The position numbers and the translations under genes are program-made. From NCBI GenBank assembly GCA_003151825.1, contig PLYO01000039.1, forward strand, positions 19,061 to 83,060: DNA of 64,000 nucleotides, read 5' to 3'. Below, one piece after another: positions 5,712 to 42,527 of this stretch. The first letter of the stretch is position 1. Every line of letters begins with the position of its first letter. The stretch is from Ignavibacteriota bacterium (lineage in GTDB: Bacteria > Bacteroidota > Ignavibacteria > Palsa-1295). The notes beneath the pieces are model-generated. The model was not told the origin of the DNA. It worked only from the letters and a program-made list of their open reading frames with translations, and did no database searches.

Positions 5712-8700
5712 CTACTTCATGGCTCCTTCAAAGGCTACCTTCCGCGAATCCTTCATTCCGGCGGAGGAAACTTGGAGGAAGCACGATCCTTCCGGGATGT
5801 TCGGGAGTTCGAGCGGGAGCGTTTGCGTGCCGGCGGGGCAGTTCACGGTTGTCCGCCACTCTTCGCGGCCCAGCATATCGGTGAGCGTAATCGTTACCAC
5901 GCCCGCGCTCGCAAGCTGGAAACACAGATCGACATGCGCCGAGCCTGTCAGCAGCGAGACCGGATTTGGCCTGACCGAAATAATTCCCAGCGCGATGTGT
6001 CCATCTAATAAGGTTCGGAGCAGGGGAGTGCCGCAGGCATCGGTCTCGGTGAAGCGAACCGGCTCCGGCATGGCAATCGAGGCGAGCACGCAGCCTTCGT
6101 AATTTTGGGATGTATCGTTAAAGCGAAGGCCGGACATTCCAATATCGCAGCCGATGCTGTCGGTGACGGCGATGGTAAAATAACAACGTACAAATTCCGT
6201 TCCCGATTGGGCGGCGCCGCCGCCAATGTGTCGAACGCGAAGTTCCATCGAACCGTTTGGATTTATCAGTGTATCCATAAGGCTCCAACCCGGCGCGGGA
6301 ACGATCTTTGCGAGTGTCAGCAAATCCCGGTTTGTGTAGAGCGTCAGCGCAATCGTTTGAAGGCCGGTGGTATCGCCAATGTCATCGAGCAGAACAGCGG
6401 CAATGGAGGTGGTGTCGCTCGCGGCGCCTGAGCACTGCATGGAACCGCCGCTCGCTTCGAGCGCAATGCGCGCCGAGGGAACCGTTCCGATTATACTTCC
6501 CGAAAGTACAATGGCTCGATCATAATTTACTTCCCGCGAACTGACGTCGAGCAAAGCCACGCCATCGCCGCTGCCATTGGGATCGAATTGGACGGTGTAA
6601 TAGAGCGTATCGCCGGGCGCAAGCATCGCCAGGCCGGTTAGAAGCGTGTCGAGTGTAAATTGCGTTTCGACCGGCAGCGCGTGGAGCAAAATCGAATCGA
6701 CCGAAACCGGATTGCAGCCCACATTCGCAATCCAAAATGTTTTCGAGACCGGCACGCAGGGCCGCGTAACGAAAACAGAATCCGGCACGGAAAAAGCGAG
6801 CGCATGTCCGCCGGGCAGCGAGGCGTAGGAAAACGCGATGAGCGTGTCGATGTTTTGTCCCACCAGCGCGAGCTGCGTGGATGCTAATGTATCTCCCGGC
6901 ACAACATGAAAAGTAATCCGCACGGAACTATCCGGAGGAAGGATAAGCGGAAGCGCAAACGGCAGCGTGAACGTAACGCCAGGATCGCCCGCGAGCGTAG
7001 TATCGGAGAGGATGACGTCATCGCAATTTCCAAGATTGGTCAGCACGAACGACGAATCGAGAGATCCACACGGCGCGATACTATTGAATGAAAACGCCGA
7101 ACCGCTCAACGCAAGAAGATGGGAACTCGGAATAACGTAACCCGTTAGGGAGATTGTCTGAAGATGATCGCTGTCAGCGATTGGGTCGTGGATGGTGACG
7201 ATTGCCGAGTCCGTTACGCCGCCATTTTCCTTTGGCTGCAACGCAATAAATATGTGGAGCGTATCGCCCGGCGGCATCGCCACTGGGAACGATGGGTTGG
7301 TTACCGTATAATTCGTGCCATTATTTAAAGCAACCGATGTTGCGATAACCGTGTCGCACGAAAGATTGACAATCTGTCCCTCCAACGTTAGTGCGTGGCA
7401 TGCCAGCAATGTGTCGAAGGCGAGTGCGGGCGTGAGGAGCGAATCGTGGAACGCTGAAATTCCCACGCCGGAAACCGTGAGGAAGGTATCGACCACCTCC
7501 CCGGCCAGATCGAGCGTGATGCGAAGCCGGTTTGACGAAGTATCCACGCTTGCGGGCTTAAAGTGAACGAGAATAGAATCGATCCCGCTATCGTTCACGA
7601 GCGTAATTGGGAATGATTTCTGATCGAACGAATATTCGCTGTCCGCATGCTCCCATGCGATATTTTCGATGGTCAGATCGCGGCATTCGCTGTTGCTGAA
7701 CGTGATCCACCGGGATGCGTCGGAGCACGGAGCGTTGACAACGCCCATTTTAAACAGCGTATCCTCCAGCCCGACTTGCACCGGAATATTGTAAAGGACT
7801 TGCAGGCTAAGCGTAACGGTCGTATCGACTCGTGCCGTGCCGCTTTGGTAGCGAATCGTAAGCTGTGTACTGTCGGTTCCCTGGCTTCCGGGCGTCACAT
7901 GGATATTTAAATTCACTCCGTCGGATGCGGGAATAACCTTTGGGAGAGAAAACGCACCCAAATGAAAAATAGAAGTATCGCTGAGGGAGATAGTTAGCAA
8001 TTCGATCGAATCGCAAGGCGAGGCAGTAAGGGGAAGGAGGGTGTCGATGGAGGCGCAAGCATCGAGCGCAGACAATGCGAGCGATCCAACATCCAGGCTA
8101 CCGCTTCGTGACACCGCAAGCGTAAGCGGCACGGTATCCGCGATCGTAATGGTGCTGCCGCTCATCATGCGGAGTGCAAGCTCCGAGGTAAAGTTTCCAT
8201 TCGTGAGCGAGGACGCGAGGAGGAAAACGGTGTCCGAACTCCTGGGCGGAATTACTTGCGGCAGCGTAAGCGGGAGAAGCTGGAAGTGGGAACTATCGCT
8301 GAGCGATGCTCCCGTAACGGTGAGCGTATCGCAGGAATAATTGTGGATGACGATCATGGAGTCTTTCGCCGTGCATGCATACGGAGCCGAAAGCGCAAGC
8401 AACGGGTTGATGCTGAAGCTCGTGGAGTTCTTAGCGGTGCCATAGAGCGTGATGATCGTATCGAGCGTACTGGTGCCCAAATTGAATTCGAGCAGCAGTT
8501 TGCCGGAATCTTTGAGCGAGGGGCTTGGCACATATTGGACGAGGAAGCTGTCGATTCCGGTTAGCGTCCAGGGCAGTCCGATTCCCGGCACCGAAAAAGT
8601 TTGTCCGCCGGAGATGAATTGTGCCTTGGTGAGCACGGCGGCCGTGCAGGAGGTGCCTGCGCTAATATGAATCGTCGAGTCAGTCGCCGAGCATCGGACG

Positions 8701-37122: not shown

Positions 37123-37617
37123 ATGCCACAATTTTCTTTCGATGTCGTTTCCGAAGTCGATCAGCAGGAGGTCGATAATGCGATCAATCAGGCCCGCAAG
37201 GAAATCGACCAGCGCTACGATTTCAAAGGCTCGAACACCAAAATCGACTGGGATCCGAAGGAGAAAGTCATCACGCTCCATACCTCCGACGACATGAAGC
37301 TCCGCGCCCTGACCGAAACGCTGAACCAGAAGATGATTAAGCGCGGAGTCTCGATGAAATCGCTCGATTATCAAAAAGCCGAGCCGGCAACGAATTCCAG
37401 TCTTCGCCAAACCGTCAAGATCAAGACCGGACTCGAATCCGAGCAGGCGAAGGTCATTACCAAGCTCGTCAAGGAGCTGAAGATGAAAGTGCAAGCCCAG
37501 ATTCAGGGCGACGCCGTCCGCATCACCGGCAAAAGCAAGGACGATCTCCAGACCGCCATCCAAACCCTGAAATCCCAAAGTCTTGATTTCCCGATCCAGT
37601 TTACGAATTTTAGGTAG
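37123..37617 (+). CDS. yajQ: YajQ family nucleotide-binding protein (UPF0234)
   Basis: 164 residues, normal length. Starts PQFSFDVVSEVDQQEVDNAI and contains the family blocks EIDQRYDFKGSNTKIDWD and KTGLESEQAKVITKLVKELK, ending with LKSQSLDFPIQFTNFR. YajQ proteins have two ferredoxin-like domains, bind nucleotides, and in Xanthomonas bind cyclic di-GMP. It stands alone after a palindromic repeat. Confidence 0.97.
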   Translation: MPQFSFDVVSEVDQQEVDNAINQARKEIDQRYDFKGSNTKIDWDPKEKVITLHTSDDMKLRALTETLNQKMIKRGVSMKSLDYQKAEPATNSSLRQTVKIKTGLESEQAKVITKLVKELKMKVQAQIQGDAVRITGKSKDDLQTAIQTLKSQSLDFPIQFTNFR

Positions 37618-38004: not shown

Positions 38005-38320
38005 AAGCTAAGGGTAGACCCGCCCAGGACTTTTTCAATCGCCCCCAGTGCGCCATTTGATTTCATTGTGCAGGGATCACCCATATCTGTACTGATAGCG
38101 GGATGTTTACACTCTCAACGCTCGCAGCCAGTCATTACGCATAAAGAGCATAAATGTTTCACTACACCATAAGATTTTTATCATTTTTCATCTAAATTGC
38201 CAAATCGGCCCCAAATCGCCAATTTTGACGTTGTGGACGATGTAATCCCCGCATAGAGCCTGCCATGAGCTTGCCGAATGGGTGCCTATGGCGAAATTGG
38301 GACGGAATTGAGATTTTTAA
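38005..38320 (+). repeat. Long dispersed repeat, copy 2
   Basis: Second copy of the element at 1-300, beginning with the same AAGCTAAGGGTAGACCCGCC and ending near TGCCGAATGGGTGCCTATGG. It lies immediately upstream of the BrnT/BrnA-type unit, as copy 1 lies upstream of the GNAT unit. No shared ORF. Confidence 0.85.
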
Positions 38321-38363: not shown

Positions 38364-38672
38364 ATGGGATTGATCGATAAATACGACGGCTTCGACTGGG
38401 ATGCCGGAAATAGCCGCAAGAACTGGGACGGACACCGCGTTTCTCGTGATGAAATCGAACAGGTCTTCTCAAACCGTCCCTGGTACGATTATGAGGCAAC
38501 GGGCTACGTTGGGACGGAGAAAAGAAGAATCGTTCTTGGCAAAACCGATTCGGGCAGGCCATTGTTCGTAGTTTATACGGAACGGAAAAACCGCGTCAGA
38601 CCTATTTGCGCGCGGGACATGCACAAGACGGAACGAAAGCTGTACGATGAAAAAGTTAAAACCTATTCCTGA
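38364..38672 (+). CDS. brnT: BrnT family RNase toxin
   Basis: 102 residues. BrnT/DUF497 fold: FDWDAGNSRKNWDGHRVSRD with the family 'FeWDpaKaxxNlxkHgvsFeEA' pattern, then YVGTEKRRIVLGKTDSGRPL, FVVYTERKNRVRPICARDM and the closing RKLYDE. The usual activity is RNA cleavage that stops growth. The key His/Arg positions (His24 or nearby, Arg in RPICAR) are visible. It overlaps the antitoxin gene by 26 bases. Named by family resemblance. Confidence 0.85.
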   Translation: MGLIDKYDGFDWDAGNSRKNWDGHRVSRDEIEQVFSNRPWYDYEATGYVGTEKRRIVLGKTDSGRPLFVVYTERKNRVRPICARDMHKTERKLYDEKVKTYS

Positions 38673-38919
38673 TTTCAAAACCGAGGACGAGGAATTCGAA
38701 TTCTGGTCAACCCACGACTTTACGGATTACCTCGACCCGGAGAAGTTCGTTTTAAAAGATCCTCCGATGGTGCCGAAGACCCTCAGCTTCAGCGCCCCGG
38801 CGGAAATGGAGCAAGAAGTAAAACGCCTCTCGAAAGAACGAAAAGTAAATATCGAGGAGATGGTGCGCCAGCTCGTCGCCGCGGGATTGAAACAGCAGCG
38901 CGTTCAGCCGGGGGCGTGA
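38647..38919 (+). CDS. brnA: BrnA/CopG-like antitoxin
   Basis: 90 residues from ATG 38647, overlapping brnT. The N-terminal half KLKPIPDFKTEDEEFEFW...HDFTDYLD is typical of CopG/BrnA antitoxins that wrap the toxin. The C-terminal half (KTLSFSAPAEMEQEVKRLSK...IEEMVRQLVAAGL) is a ribbon-helix-helix-like DNA-binding segment, so autorepression is expected. The cassette-end repeat begins 7 bases after the stop. Confidence 0.82.
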   Translation: MKKLKPIPDFKTEDEEFEFWSTHDFTDYLDPEKFVLKDPPMVPKTLSFSAPAEMEQEVKRLSKERKVNIEEMVRQLVAAGLKQQRVQPGA

Positions 38920-38925
38920 ACGGTA

Positions 38926-38974
38926 GTTCCAAAACCCCGAAGCGCAGCAAAGTCGCAAGCCGGTGAAATAACGA
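38926..38974 (+). repeat. Cassette-end direct repeat, copy 2
   Basis: GTTCCAA...GCGCAGCAAAGTCGCAAGC...GTGAAATAACGA, closely matching 1151-1200. In the shared register it would encode KRSKVASR and then TGA, but that register is not in frame with brnA here. Confidence 0.85.
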
Positions 38975-39007: not shown

Positions 39008-39640
39008 ATGAAAATTCAAGGCTTTAATCTGATTTCAGATGTGATAGGCAACATTGATTTCTGGGGAATTTTAATAGTACTGTTGAGTTACTCAGTAGCA
39101 AAGCTTAAGTATAGCGGCCCAAAGGCCCTAGCCCGCGCTTTAGCAACAGGCTACTACTACAACTTTATCTATTTGCTCGGAGCAAAACTGAAAAAAGGGG
39201 AATTTGTTCTTCCGACGGACGAGGGACTTGGGAAAGCTAAGCTTGGAAATGATGACGTGAAGCTCGTTCTTTATCTTCCCAAAAAATTGGAACACACCCT
39301 GTGGGATAAAGCTGTCTCAAGCGCCGCTTCAGGGAAAAAACCGGTCACCGTATTGCTAGAAGGAGATGAACAGCGTACAGTGACTTACGTCGTTGAGTGG
39401 CATGGGAATAACCCAACTGTTTTGATCAAAGACTTCCCAAGGACCTATTACTCGATTAAATTCTTCGAAGACTACAGGCGCCGCGCATGGTACTTGCCGA
39501 AAAGAAAGGAAGTGGGGGCATCCACCTTAAACGCTTTCAAGGAAAGGCTCCTCGATTTGGTCCGTGAAGACGAACTCTTTGATCATCGAAAGACTGACAA
39601 GACGTTCAATGAAAAGATAGTCTGGCAAGAGGTTGAGTGA
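39008..39640 (+). CDS. Prokaryotic STING-like cyclic-dinucleotide receptor with one N-terminal membrane segment (candidate)
   Basis: 210 residues. One hydrophobic segment (FWGILIVLLSYSVA, about residues 18-33) is followed by a domain that lines up with STING: GYYYNF (48-53) at the 'SYYIGY' helix of human STING, the strand VKLVLYLP at 'RLYILLP', RTVTYVVEW (Arg123) at the 'RVYSNS' lid strands, KDFPRT (Asp142, Thr146) at the Asp-x3-Thr ligand site of bacterial STINGs, and a final helix plus EKIVWQEVE at 'RLIAYQEP'. Bacterial STINGs bind cyclic di-GMP in CBASS defence and fuse to TIR or TM effectors; this one has only the TM segment. No CD-NTase is in the window. Recognised by pattern only. Confidence 0.68.
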   Translation: MKIQGFNLISDVIGNIDFWGILIVLLSYSVAKLKYSGPKALARALATGYYYNFIYLLGAKLKKGEFVLPTDEGLGKAKLGNDDVKLVLYLPKKLEHTLWDKAVSSAASGKKPVTVLLEGDEQRTVTYVVEWHGNNPTVLIKDFPRTYYSIKFFEDYRRRAWYLPKRKEVGASTLNAFKERLLDLVREDELFDHRKTDKTFNEKIVWQEVE

Positions 39641-39647
39641 TAATCTC

Positions 39648-39684
39648 CGAAGCGCAGCAAAGCCACAAGCCGATGAAAATAACG
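39648..39684 (+). repeat. Cassette-end direct repeat, copy 3
   Basis: CCGAAGCGCAGCAAAGCCAC...GATGAAAATAACGA, without the GTTCCAA part seen in copies 1 and 2. Its tail-encoding register (KRSKATSR, TGA) is in frame with the STING-like gene but is cut off from it by the tandem stops TGA TAA. Confidence 0.85.
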
Positions 39685-39704: not shown

Positions 39705-40394
39705 TTAGGATGTTAAGTATTCGCGAAAAAGAACTCTCGCATACCCTCGACCATACGAATACATAGCGAAGCGGCTGACTAAAACCGGAATTAAATAGAT
39801 CCCCAAAATAATCATATTCGTAAGCAATGCTCCAGGAATCGAAAGTATTAAGCCAAAAATCGTGACGTTAATAAGACTTAAAACGACCGCTACGAGGCTT
39901 CCTCCACAAAAATTACGAACGAATCCATATTCCCAATTATGTTGTAGAAGAAGATGGCCGTCTTTGACGCGTGCACGGACAAGTTCAATCGATTCACGCA
40001 ATCGTGTTAAATCATCTGTGGACGACAAAGATAGGTTGCCGAGATCGATCCCAAAATCGTTCCTGATTTTCGATTTTATCTTTGTTTTATAATCCGCGCT
40101 AAATTCGTGGCTTTCATCTGACATCATAATTGAACTTGGCATTCGCAAGCCAGAAGAAAAATACGAATTTTCAAAAACACCGATTGCAACAGAGCGAATG
40201 ATTTGGGAAAGGAGATAGAATCCAGCCGTACCGCTGAAGATCGGAAACATCACTCGTAACAAGGTACTCCATGTTGAAGATTCAATCGGAATAGAAACCG
40301 CAGCAAAATACCCCGCTGCAACAAATGGTCCTAAGGCCAGCAGAGTAGGGTACTTCCGAGCATACCGATTGTATAAATTTTTCTCCTTTTTCAT
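39705..40394 (-). CDS. Four-TM membrane protein of unknown function
   Basis: 229 residues. Two N-terminal membrane helices (YPTLLALGPFVAAGYFAAVS, then LLRVMFPIFSGTAGFYLLSQ), a cytoplasmic middle of about 90 residues with a charged helical stretch (ADYKTKIKSKIRNDFGIDLG; TRLRESIELVRARV), and two C-terminal helices (SLVAVVLSLINVTIFGLILS; NMIILGIYLIPVLVSRF). The layout recalls 2TM/4TM pore-forming effectors of nucleotide-signalling defence systems, but no specific family is recognised. It follows the MBL-fold gene by two bases and so forms an operon with it. Confidence 0.72.
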   Translation of the reverse strand: MKKEKNLYNRYARKYPTLLALGPFVAAGYFAAVSIPIESSTWSTLLRVMFPIFSGTAGFYLLSQIIRSVAIGVFENSYFSSGLRMPSSIMMSDESHEFSADYKTKIKSKIRNDFGIDLGNLSLSSTDDLTRLRESIELVRARVKDGHLLLQHNWEYGFVRNFCGGSLVAVVLSLINVTIFGLILSIPGALLTNMIILGIYLIPVLVSRFAMYSYGRGYARVLFREYLTS

Positions 40395-40396
40395 CT

Positions 40397-41242
40397 TTAA
40401 AATCGAATGGTGTTATACGTTGCGGAACCTTTCGAATCTACGTTCACTAAAATATGTCCGTCACTCCGTGTTGTCAGGACCTTCCGGCGTTGCGAATGTA
40501 CTAAAATACCATTTCCGCTCACTTGAGAGGCATAATCCTGCGCCATCCCGTCCTGCGTGTCATGGACAAGACTCTTATCCGATATTACAATGACCTCTGG
40601 TGCGCAGAACTTAAACACCCCTTCCACGTAGCCGTTCTCTCGCCCGTGGTGAGAGGCAACGAAGAGTTTCGTTCTTGAAAGTAGGCTACATACTTCTGGT
40701 TTTTGAAGCATTAGTCTCCATCCCTCGTGTTCGAGATCACCAGGCACACAGATTACGAAACCATTGTAATCGATAAAAACCAGCTGGCTAAGATCGTTCG
40801 TTGAAGGAGAGGTCGTAAATTCATTCTTACTTAGAGTGAAGCAATGTGTTTTAAATGGAGGAGTGTAGGTATTTGGTAGATCGTTAATGTATTCCTCCTT
40901 AATCTCACAAACAGCAGTCACGGCTCGTGTTATAGTGGGTTTGATGAGCTTAATTTCTATGCTCGAGAGATTCTTTGCAAATATAACCGATCTAATGTAA
41001 ACTTTCGAGCGAAGCCCTGGAAGACCCGAAAAATGGTCTTGATCATAATTGGTCAGAATCAGCTGACTCAATTGTGGTCTGCCATTCACCCCCGGAATGA
41101 GATTATACTCGATTAGCACATCGATCGGATCGAAGTCGGGCGTATTGCCGCAATCGATCATCGTACCATACTCAGGTTGCGATTGTGGATATAGAAAAAT
41201 ACACTGACCAAGTTCTACGTTGAAAATAATAATGTCCAGCAT
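40397..41242 (-). CDS. Metallo-beta-lactamase-fold hydrolase, ComEC/Rec2-like
   Basis: 281 residues. MBL-fold blocks: MIDCGNT (about 28-34), LTNYDQDHFSGLPGL (63-77), VPGDLEHEGW and VASHHGRENG (His197/198). The metal motif HxHxDH reads Asn65-x-Asp67-x-Asp69-His70, a variant also seen in ComEC-type MBL proteins, so metal binding is likely but altered. It has no membrane part. Relatives hydrolyse phosphodiesters or nucleotides. It is first in a two-gene operon with the four-TM protein and convergent to the STING-like gene. Confidence 0.82.
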   Translation of the reverse strand: MLDIIIFNVELGQCIFLYPQSQPEYGTMIDCGNTPDFDPIDVLIEYNLIPGVNGRPQLSQLILTNYDQDHFSGLPGLRSKVYIRSVIFAKNLSSIEIKLIKPTITRAVTAVCEIKEEYINDLPNTYTPPFKTHCFTLSKNEFTTSPSTNDLSQLVFIDYNGFVICVPGDLEHEGWRLMLQKPEVCSLLSRTKLFVASHHGRENGYVEGVFKFCAPEVIVISDKSLVHDTQDGMAQDYASQVSGNGILVHSQRRKVLTTRSDGHILVNVDSKGSATYNTIRF

Positions 41243-41805
41243 GTTTGTATTTGATAAAGTTCAGGGTTTGATGAGCAAACAGGTGCCCATCAGCCTTCCT
41301 ACTAATATACGAAGAAATCTTTGTCCTTCTCTTGCTTTTGTAGTTTTCGTCAACATCGGGAAAGAATACATCTTTACCCCTTATCGCAAAATTGTTTTTA
41401 GTTCTCAGTGCGCTGAGCCAATTCACGGCAATCCCCGCGTGGTGTGTACCCTCTGTGGAGGATGGGTTCCGGGCAATGACAGAGCCATGCTGCCCGCGCC
41501 AATGGTATTCGTTCTGGCGGCTTTCGCCGCCGCCCAAATCCCCCTCACCCATTCGGCAAGCTCAGGGCAGGCTCTAATCTCTCCCCCCAGGGGGAGAGGA
41601 ACAGGAATCGAAGGGAGGGGCCGGGGGAGGGGTCGTTGCACATCACCCACACCGCGTTTAAAGACATAGCGCGAATGAATGTTCCTAATAAGAATGTTGA
41701 GAACATTTTCCCGAATATCCCTTGAGTAGCCGCTTCCATAACGCACTCGCGAAAATTATATCGTGGCTATCGGCCCGACGAAAAGGCGAGCCAAATGCTC
41801 CGCGC
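41243..41805. other. Repeat-rich gap
   Basis: The 560-base gap holds AT-rich DNA upstream of the MBL gene, one copy of the 85-bp repeat (41455-41538), and a GC-rich palindromic patch at 41545-41640 with CTCTCCCCCCAGGGGGAGAG. An apparent ORF spanning 41220-41669 runs through these repeats and is not considered real. Confidence 0.6.
41455..41538 (+). repeat. 85-bp palindromic repeat, copy (5' end diverged)
   Basis: GGGTTCCGGGCAATGACAGAGCC...TGCCCGC...GGCGGCTTTCGCCGCC matches the copies at 42442 and 42731. Internal palindromes GGGCA/TGCCC and GGCGGnnnTCGCCGCC could fold into two hairpins. Confidence 0.8.
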
Positions 41806-42441: not shown

Positions 42442-42527
42442 GGGCACCTATTCTGGGTTCCGGGCAATAATAGAGCCATGCTGCCCGCACCCATGGTACT
42501 CATTCTGGCGGTTTTCGCCGCCCAAAG
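42442..42527 (+). repeat. 85-bp palindromic repeat, most complete copy
   Basis: Begins GCGGGCACCTATTCTGGGTT and ends GGCGGTTTTCGCCGCC. Other copies: 42731-42822, 41455-41538 and a fragment at 2917-2947. Possible hairpins: CCGGGCA with TGCCCG, and GGCGGTTTTCGCC. Confidence 0.85.

Follow-up and report, generated by a model that had tools for sequence, protein, structure and literature searches.

In the published accounts covered here, as far as their accessible text goes, bacterial STING is described as the effector of a CD-NTase–STING operon and mainly as a reader of c-di-GMP. In the TIR-STINGs, the ligand closes a lid and the dimers stack into filaments, by which the TIR NADase is turned on (PMC9402430). 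Meanwhile, the output of TM-fused bacterial STINGs is given as membrane pores (PMC8748872), two N-terminal membrane helices are predicted in the known bacterial TM-STINGs (PMC10732462), and the role of the membrane part has been called unclear (PMC12421889). In the pocket, an aspartate (D252 of PcSTING, D251 of MySTING) contacts guanine N2 and, by the published numbering, the side chain of a threonine three residues further (Asp+3) contacts the phosphate (PMC8748872). The lid arginine reads the Hoogsteen edge of guanine, and both the lid and the Asp+3 site matter in the structures (PMC8748872, PMC9402430); two lid classes, RXR and RX(Y/F), are described. Bacterial CD-NTases often work without STING, and other STING-domain fusions exist (PMC10732462).

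Here, we examined a 64,000-nucleotide stretch of DNA (the window) from a draft genome of the Ignavibacteriota, in which an initial annotation had proposed an orphan STING-like protein of 210 residues. The ORF and the motifs quoted for it are present in the translation as annotated, and its ATG is the first start codon past the preceding stop in the ORF listing. The coordinates of this gene and of the features around it are collected in Table 1.

Table 1. Features of the window (nucleotide positions, except where residues of the STING protein are given).
Feature	Position	Strand	Evidence or remark
GapS1-like gene, 567 aa	1221-2924	-	NCBIfam NF047931, 2.9e-20, 72.6 bits (cut-off 320); no PADLOC match
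yajQ (DUF520)	37123..37617	+	PF04461, 6.4e-65; gene order breaks after it
31-nt inverted repeat I2, left arm	38254..38284	+	97% complementary to 41546-41576
BrnT-type ribonuclease toxin	38364..38672	+	PF04365, 2.3e-19; upstream of STING
CopG-type (BrnA-like) antitoxin	38647..38919	+	PF12441, 6.3e-14; ends 88 nt before STING start
37-nt direct repeat, upstream copy	38932..38968	+	frame reads ..TPKRSKVASR*
STING-domain protein gene	39008..39640	+	210 aa; PF20300, leave-out profile, Foldseek
Parts of the STING protein	membrane segment ~8-26; STING domain ~39-189 (residues)		
Motifs of the STING protein	LATGYYYNF stem 45-53; EQRTVTY lid 121-127; DFPRT 142-146 (residues)		
37-nt direct repeat, downstream copy	39642..39678	+	just past STING stop; SPKRSKATSR*, in frame behind two stops
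229-aa membrane-protein-like gene (4TM)	39705..40394	-	ORF; several hydrophobic stretches by eye
281-aa metallo-beta-lactamase (MBL)-fold protein, PDC-M48B-like	40397..41242	-	PADLOC PDLC04674, 7.4e-30
31-nt inverted repeat I2, right arm	41546..41576	-	bounds island

The Pfam profile of prokaryotic STING (PF20300) matched the window protein with E=2.4e-10 and 41 bits, the cut-off being 27.1, over residues 42-183 and profile positions 2-130 of 137. In a search of the whole genome, the protein was the sole STING (41.6 bits), and no match over the cut-off was obtained in 14 control genomes. Since a lone profile match in a divergent protein calls for an independent test, a second profile was built from 18 other STING domains found in this analysis, with the window protein excluded. 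With it, the window protein obtained 52.1 bits, as compared with 7.0 for the highest-scoring of 2000 shuffles. The sub-profiles of TM-STINGs (n=4) and soluble STINGs (n=5) gave 37.2 and 33.4 bits (best shuffles 7.7 and 5.1), the TIR-STING sub-profile only 16.7 bits (best shuffle 10.4), and by these scores the TM and soluble STINGs are the closest to the window protein. NCBIfam yielded no match to it at E<=0.1. When its single sequence was searched against the PDB sequences, no STING was found, and the sole match (E 0.57) was unrelated. At E<=0.01, a profile of 13 sequences that includes the window protein (A1) retrieved 15 different PDB sequences. Fourteen of them bear the name STING or Cap12; the other one, 7ebd, is labelled 'TIR-like domain-containing protein' but, going by the title of its PDB entry, is a bacterial STING.

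The AlphaFold2 monomer, predicted from an alignment with four Verrucomicrobial relatives, was of low confidence (mean pLDDT 55.9, pTM 0.59), its weakest part containing the membrane segment. All 33 matches of this low-confidence model to solved structures at E<=0.001 in Foldseek were STINGs, the first eight of them bacterial. The best match was 7ebl_A (E 5.0e-6, TM 0.64 by target), and 8hwj, the STING of Epilithonimonas lactis, was among the others. The STING identity was thus borne out by profile and by fold search, and we conclude that the identification of the predicted protein as a true STING-domain protein is strong.

The single N-terminal membrane segment noted in the initial annotation was likewise found: the best 19-residue Kyte-Doolittle mean was 1.89 at residues 8-26 and the next best 0.79. 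The same measure gives two segments in the proteins of loci L034, L035, L037, and L038 and one in L041 and L042. No TIR domain is present in the window protein, as only ~38 residues lie ahead of the STING domain, and the PADLOC 'TIR' effector match falls in the STING part (residues 44-151).

In this architecture, an N-terminal membrane segment followed by a PF20300 domain without TIR, the window protein resembles Cap13, represented in our sample by the TM-STING L038 (genome G077). L038, however, has a CD-NTase next to it (365 aa; 9.4e-127 to a PADLOC oligonucleotide cyclase) as well as two hydrophobic segments, whereas the window protein has a single segment, changed pocket residues, and no CD-NTase that we found. 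As L038 is linked to a CD-NTase, the architecture alone is no proof of a CBASS-independent role. The Cap12 TIR-STINGs (SfSTING, PcSTING, MySTING, and ElSTING; 7un8, 7ebd, 7ebl, and 8hwj) have the STING fold, the stem motif, the guanine-N2 aspartate, and the pocket Asn and Phe in common with the window protein, which differs from them in the lack of a TIR domain and of the RXR/RX(Y/F) lid, in an arginine at Asp+3, and in that no CD-NTase was found.

The pocket residues were compared in 24 aligned STING-domain proteins, including the window protein. The latter retains the stem LATGYYYNF, Asn52, Phe53, and Asp142, which fills the position of the guanine-N2 aspartate. Of the pocket pair proposed initially, Asp142 and Thr146, the aspartate stood, but Thr146 was dropped as the phosphate threonine, since the alignment puts Arg145 at Asp+3 and Thr146 at Asp+4. 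The lid-arginine column holds Arg in 20 of the 24 STINGs, the exceptions being L034, L035, L042, and the window protein, in which it holds Glu121 and an arginine (Arg123) follows two residues further; since the register of the lid may be off by about two residues, Arg123 might take the place of the lid arginine. The RXR or RX(Y/F) motif is absent from both registers, Glu121-Gln-Arg123 and Arg123-Thr-Val125. Arginine at Asp+3 occurs in nine of the 24 proteins (the window protein, L034, L035, L040, L048-L051, and L079), which are not independent, as six belong to a single clade (97/93). It occurs in none of the ten TIR-STINGs, so labelled from their N-terminal sequence and length, and in none of the seven STINGs with an adjacent CD-NTase. 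Judged from the alignment, the predicted pocket is unlike that of the CD-NTase-linked STINGs. Because the guanine-reading lid arginine aligns with a glutamate and the phosphate threonine with an arginine, the ligand is probably not c-di-GMP.

The E. lactis STING has been solved with c-di-AMP (8hwj). Its clamp includes a Tyr, an Asn, and a Phe that correspond to Tyr49, Asn52, and Phe53 of the window protein, and the lid arginine is unused (PMC10739871). Measured against the clamp as described there, the window protein has kept the stem Tyr, Asn, and Phe and has lost one of the two Thr, the lid Pro, and the lid Leu. As the STING solved with c-di-AMP uses Tyr, Asn, and Phe and not the lid arginine, c-di-AMP is a reasonable candidate ligand, to be taken as a lead only. 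It should be noted that the E. lactis operon's own CD-NTase makes c-di-GMP, and that c-di-AMP drives this STING into filaments and not into the bundles linked to activity (PMC12421889).

For the cyclase search, we used a profile of seven CD-NTases from STING operons (A3), which covers one clade well and the other clades less. It gave no match at E<=1 in the six frames of the whole 64-kb window and none at E<=10 across the draft genome, where the search ran without a positive-control genome. In a leave-one-out test, each of the seven members was recovered (240.7-380.4 bits), and over 24 loci the profile finds its seven and nothing else. Since it recovers left-out members, a CD-NTase of this clade should have been seen if it were in the assembly. 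The best match of the SMODS profile (PF18144) in the own genome was 13 bits. SMODS was rejected as a genome-wide control, as it detected one of seven known adjacent CD-NTases, and that one below the cut-off; in the other six genomes with a CD-NTase beside STING it missed the gene. Over the clades covered, the remark that no cyclase is visible held, and with it the proposal of a STING outside a classical CBASS operon.

The protein might still be a CD-NTase-dependent Cap13 effector, its cyclase missing from the draft or belonging to an unrecognised clade. The assembly is of draft quality (98.39% complete, 51 contigs, 6.57% estimated contamination), so that a CD-NTase could be absent from it; SMODS is insensitive to the STING-linked clade; the TM-STING L038 does adjoin a CD-NTase; and two genomes (G220 and G274) combine a STING without a nearby CD-NTase with a SMODS match over the cut-off elsewhere. 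However, the contig continues for tens of kilobases on both sides of the STING gene, and the A3 results for the 64-kb window and the whole genome speak against it as well, so that we regard a missing cyclase as quite unlikely. Within the limits set by the draft genome and the CD-NTase clades covered, the predicted orphan status is good. The explanation that we prefer, and to which we give an even chance of being right, is that of a divergent, Cap13-like STING receptor with a single membrane segment, encoded by a lone accessory gene outside recognisable CBASS and gated by a ligand whose signal would not come from a dedicated CD-NTase.

The diguanylate cyclase check suggested in the initial annotation yielded one GGDEF domain over the cut-off in the own genome, with RTDEHTF in place of GG(D/E)EF; none was found in which the motif is preserved. 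Each of the six genus mates (L083-L088) also has a single GGDEF match in which the motif is lost and the domain otherwise conserved. In genome G000 (L003), the motif-less domain comes after GAF domains, and a sigma-factor-like ORF (by eye) is next. The motif-less GGDEF of the seven genus genomes seems to have been kept as a receptor or scaffold. The own genome further contains one c-di-AMP cyclase (DAC) domain over the cut-off (121.8 bits) with DGA and RHR, which we take to be the functional motifs of DAC. This sole cyclic-dinucleotide synthase with recognisable intact motifs in the searches made would produce c-di-AMP.

Such a synthase would suit a housekeeping receptor that reads the cell's c-di-AMP and signals to the membrane, or that acts as a depletion alarm when phage enzymes destroy cyclic dinucleotides. 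Binding of c-di-AMP is known for the E. lactis STING (PMC10739871; 8hwj), and Panoptes is a precedent for sensing via decoy nucleotides (PMC12657218). A wider spread would be expected of a housekeeping receptor, yet the gene is accessory: PF20300 at E<=0.001 was found in none of the six genus mates and in none of six further family members (two of the latter 67% complete). The c-di-GMP product of the E. lactis CD-NTase and the filaments without active bundles described above (PMC12421889) are further points against it. We consider a housekeeping receptor unlikely, although it overlaps the preferred explanation on the ligand.

Under the preferred explanation of a lone, ligand-gated receptor, the most economical mechanism, by analogy, would be stacking as in the TIR-STINGs, the output being provided by the membrane segment. 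The STING domains would form dimers that bind a 3'3' cyclic dinucleotide, and the bound ligand would close the lid and stack the dimers side by side. This stacking would cluster the membrane helices, so that the inner membrane may be damaged or depolarised and growth would stop. Endogenous c-di-AMP could serve as the signal, as could a nucleotide imported or altered during infection. A bare STING domain without an enzymatic effector could also serve as a binder, sequestering cyclic dinucleotides as a nucleotide sponge or an anti-CBASS protein. In a sponge, however, the membrane segment would have no obvious purpose, and no relative turned up when the window protein (against viral contigs, plasmids, and phages), A5 and A2 (viral contigs), L050 (phages and plasmids), and L034 (plasmids) were used as queries in searches able to detect only close to moderate similarity. 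We therefore regard this role as highly improbable.

The initial annotation had stated that the bacterial STINGs known so far adjoin a CD-NTase. Of 395 genomes sampled across the phylum, 16 had PF20300 over the cut-off (21 had it at E<=0.01), as did 6 of 391 sampled across the class; with the overlap removed, the two samples gave the window and 19 other STING loci. Five sub-cut-off matches (L021-L025), including the L043 region, were left out of these counts, although the L043 region was part of the input to the A3 locus scan. An A3-type CD-NTase was present in the fetched stretch (usually ~8 kb each side) of only seven of the 19 loci, so that the general statement does not hold in this sample. 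These seven are six TIR-STINGs and the TM-STING L038. Among the 12 loci whose stretch lacks an A3-type CD-NTase are four TIR-STINGs (L033, L039, L077, and L078) and the STINGs of G220 and G274; the stretches of L033 and L041 are cut by contig ends, and CD-NTases of other clades could be missed. The TIR-STING L077, its TIR judged by eye, has a separate TIR-like protein close by. A contig scan with an alignment of four lone STINGs added four more loci, all from Verrucomicrobia and without an A3-type CD-NTase in the stretch. Combined, 16 of 23 other loci are without one; four of these 23 had entered the set through their similarity to lone STINGs.

The Verrucomicrobial STINGs are soluble and retain the lid arginine and the aromatic residue; L048, L049, and L051 are 59, 56, and 57% identical to L050. 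A STING fold was predicted for L050 (mean pLDDT 68.3), and all of its 21 Foldseek matches at E<=0.001 were bacterial STINGs. L048-L051 together with L040 make up a soluble lone STING clade with the motif Asp-Leu-Ala-Arg-Pro, in which a member from the window's class is nested. This member, the STING of G213, nests in the tree within the Verrucomicrobial soluble STINGs with weak to moderate branch support. The soluble lone STINGs are like the window protein in having no A3-type CD-NTase, no TIR, and an arginine at Asp+3, and residues around Lys151-Glu154 and AFKE are common to both. Unlike the window protein, they have no clear membrane segment and retain an RYY or RFY lid. As the lid arginine and the aromatic residue are kept, c-di-GMP binding by them looks possible.

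The window protein itself groups with L034 and L035 (89/89) on an end branch of 3.57 and falls in no starred set; because this branch is long, its place in the tree is uncertain. L034 and L035, its closest neighbours in the tree, are lone TM-STINGs from two congeneric species of another family. They have in common with it the loss of the lid arginine, the DFPRT motif, and a locus without an A3-type CD-NTase, and differ in their two hydrophobic segments, an identity of only ~25%, and other gene neighbours; one genome of the pair (G274) has the SMODS match elsewhere mentioned above. The window protein had no match in 60 relatives, two of which (G018 and G034) carry other, TIR-type STINGs by profile.

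The long end branch, the two changed pocket residues, the lack of a match in these 60 relatives, and the related STINGs that still adjoin CD-NTases are consistent with a remnant of a CBASS operon, in which a TM-STING effector was left or moved alone after the loss of its CD-NTase and is drifting without function. On the other hand, the ORF is intact, and the stem, Asp142, Asn52, Phe53, and the membrane segment are retained. The loss of the lid arginine and the arginine at Asp+3 are common to L034 and L035, also without an A3-type CD-NTase alongside, which suggests a lineage rather than decay. A functionless remnant thus appears improbable to us.

A wider and tentative proposal, which we hold to be rather unlikely, goes beyond the lone receptor preferred above. 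There may be a CBASS-independent branch of bacterial STINGs, consisting of lone receptors, membrane-anchored or soluble, with Asp-x-x-Arg for Asp-x-Pro-Thr and a messenger that does not come from a dedicated CD-NTase; in the lineage of the window protein, the lid arginine would also have been lost, and the messenger would be c-di-AMP or a phage-altered pool. If this were true, STING would be a general bacterial cyclic-dinucleotide receptor that was taken into CBASS in some lineages only. A lone STING with an altered pocket in a genome in which no STING-operon type of CD-NTase was found allows a direct test of STING sensing outside CBASS. No description of a lone bacterial STING was present among the literature matches listed, most subscription papers being outside their scope. 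The nearest parallels are eukaryotic: the genomes with choanoflagellate standalone STINGs and the fungal PNP-STING are, as described, without a recognised partner cyclase, like that of the window, but two tested choanoflagellate STINGs bind c-di-GMP and the fungal one is fused to PNP (PMC12424679). Lone bacterial STINGs bear on the origin of these standalone STINGs.

The neighbours named in the initial annotation, a BrnTA pair and an MBL/4TM pair, were recovered, the 4TM gene as an ORF and the other three genes by their profile matches (Table 1); the MBL/4TM pair is convergent with the STING gene. The MBL-fold protein scored 16.8 bits with PF00753, below the cut-off of 22.7, and PDC-M48B is a phage-defence candidate. 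The 229-aa protein had no Pfam or PADLOC match at E<=10 and no NCBIfam match at E<=0.1, and its gene and that of the MBL-fold protein probably form an operon. We infer a defence role for the STING protein from the BrnTA and PDC-M48B-like genes next to it.

The repeat-bounded island was also confirmed. The two 37-nt copies are 86% identical and bracket the STING gene alone, and the 31-nt inverted arms enclose the whole BrnTA-STING-4TM-MBL group. A 31-nt core of the 37-nt repeat has four copies in the genome at <=3 mismatches (none for a reversed-pattern control), and a trimmed form occurs three times in the window, 0.01 being expected. Every copy, when read in one of its frames, yields R(S/N)K(A/V)(T/A)SR followed by a stop (by eye for the contig-38 copy), for which reason the repeat may represent a common 3' coding end that serves as an insertion site. 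An RNA or an integron attC was rejected as its identity, as no Rfam family reached the gathering score, the window has no tRNA, and attC was judged by eye.

The third copy (1164-1194, +) lies just past the 3' end of the GapS1-like gene, GapS1 being presumably antiphage, as the name of the model suggests. The fourth adjoins a lone nucleotidyltransferase-like gene on contig 38 (L046, 652-1404, -). This gene was rejected as a hidden cyclase: A3 gave it -1.1 bits, its best matches were weak ones to lincosamide nucleotidyltransferase models, far below the cut-off, and to streptomycin adenylyltransferase, also below it, and PADLOC had none at E<=0.1. A dispersed, intergenic repeat of 69 nt (41463-41531 and 42454-42522, 90% identical) also occurs on L046 at ~500-580 (by eye).

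The GC content of the STING, MBL, and 4TM genes is 44.5, 43.7, and 41.2%, and that of the window 51.6%. The stretches of nine relatives contain no BrnT, antitoxin, STING, 4TM, MBL, RelE-like, AmtB, or E2 gene (tblastn, 1e-4). Upstream of the break, a TPR gene is beside yajQ in four of these nine and HU in three. As both adjoin yajQ in relatives too, contamination (6.57% estimated) is an unlikely source of the contig. After yajQ, seven of eight genus or family relatives have an amidase-like ORF (by eye from its motif) within 3.3 kb, directly after yajQ in five of the seven; none is listed in G006. Given the repeats, the gene-order break after yajQ, and the low GC, the STING gene is an accessory gene. 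The promoter and terminator scan was not informative (7 and 7, with shuffle means of 4.4 and 3.2). In one relative (G001, L065), the last 20 codons of yajQ (5938-5997) recur ~1.7 kb downstream (7688 region), as if an insertion had taken place at the 3' end of yajQ.
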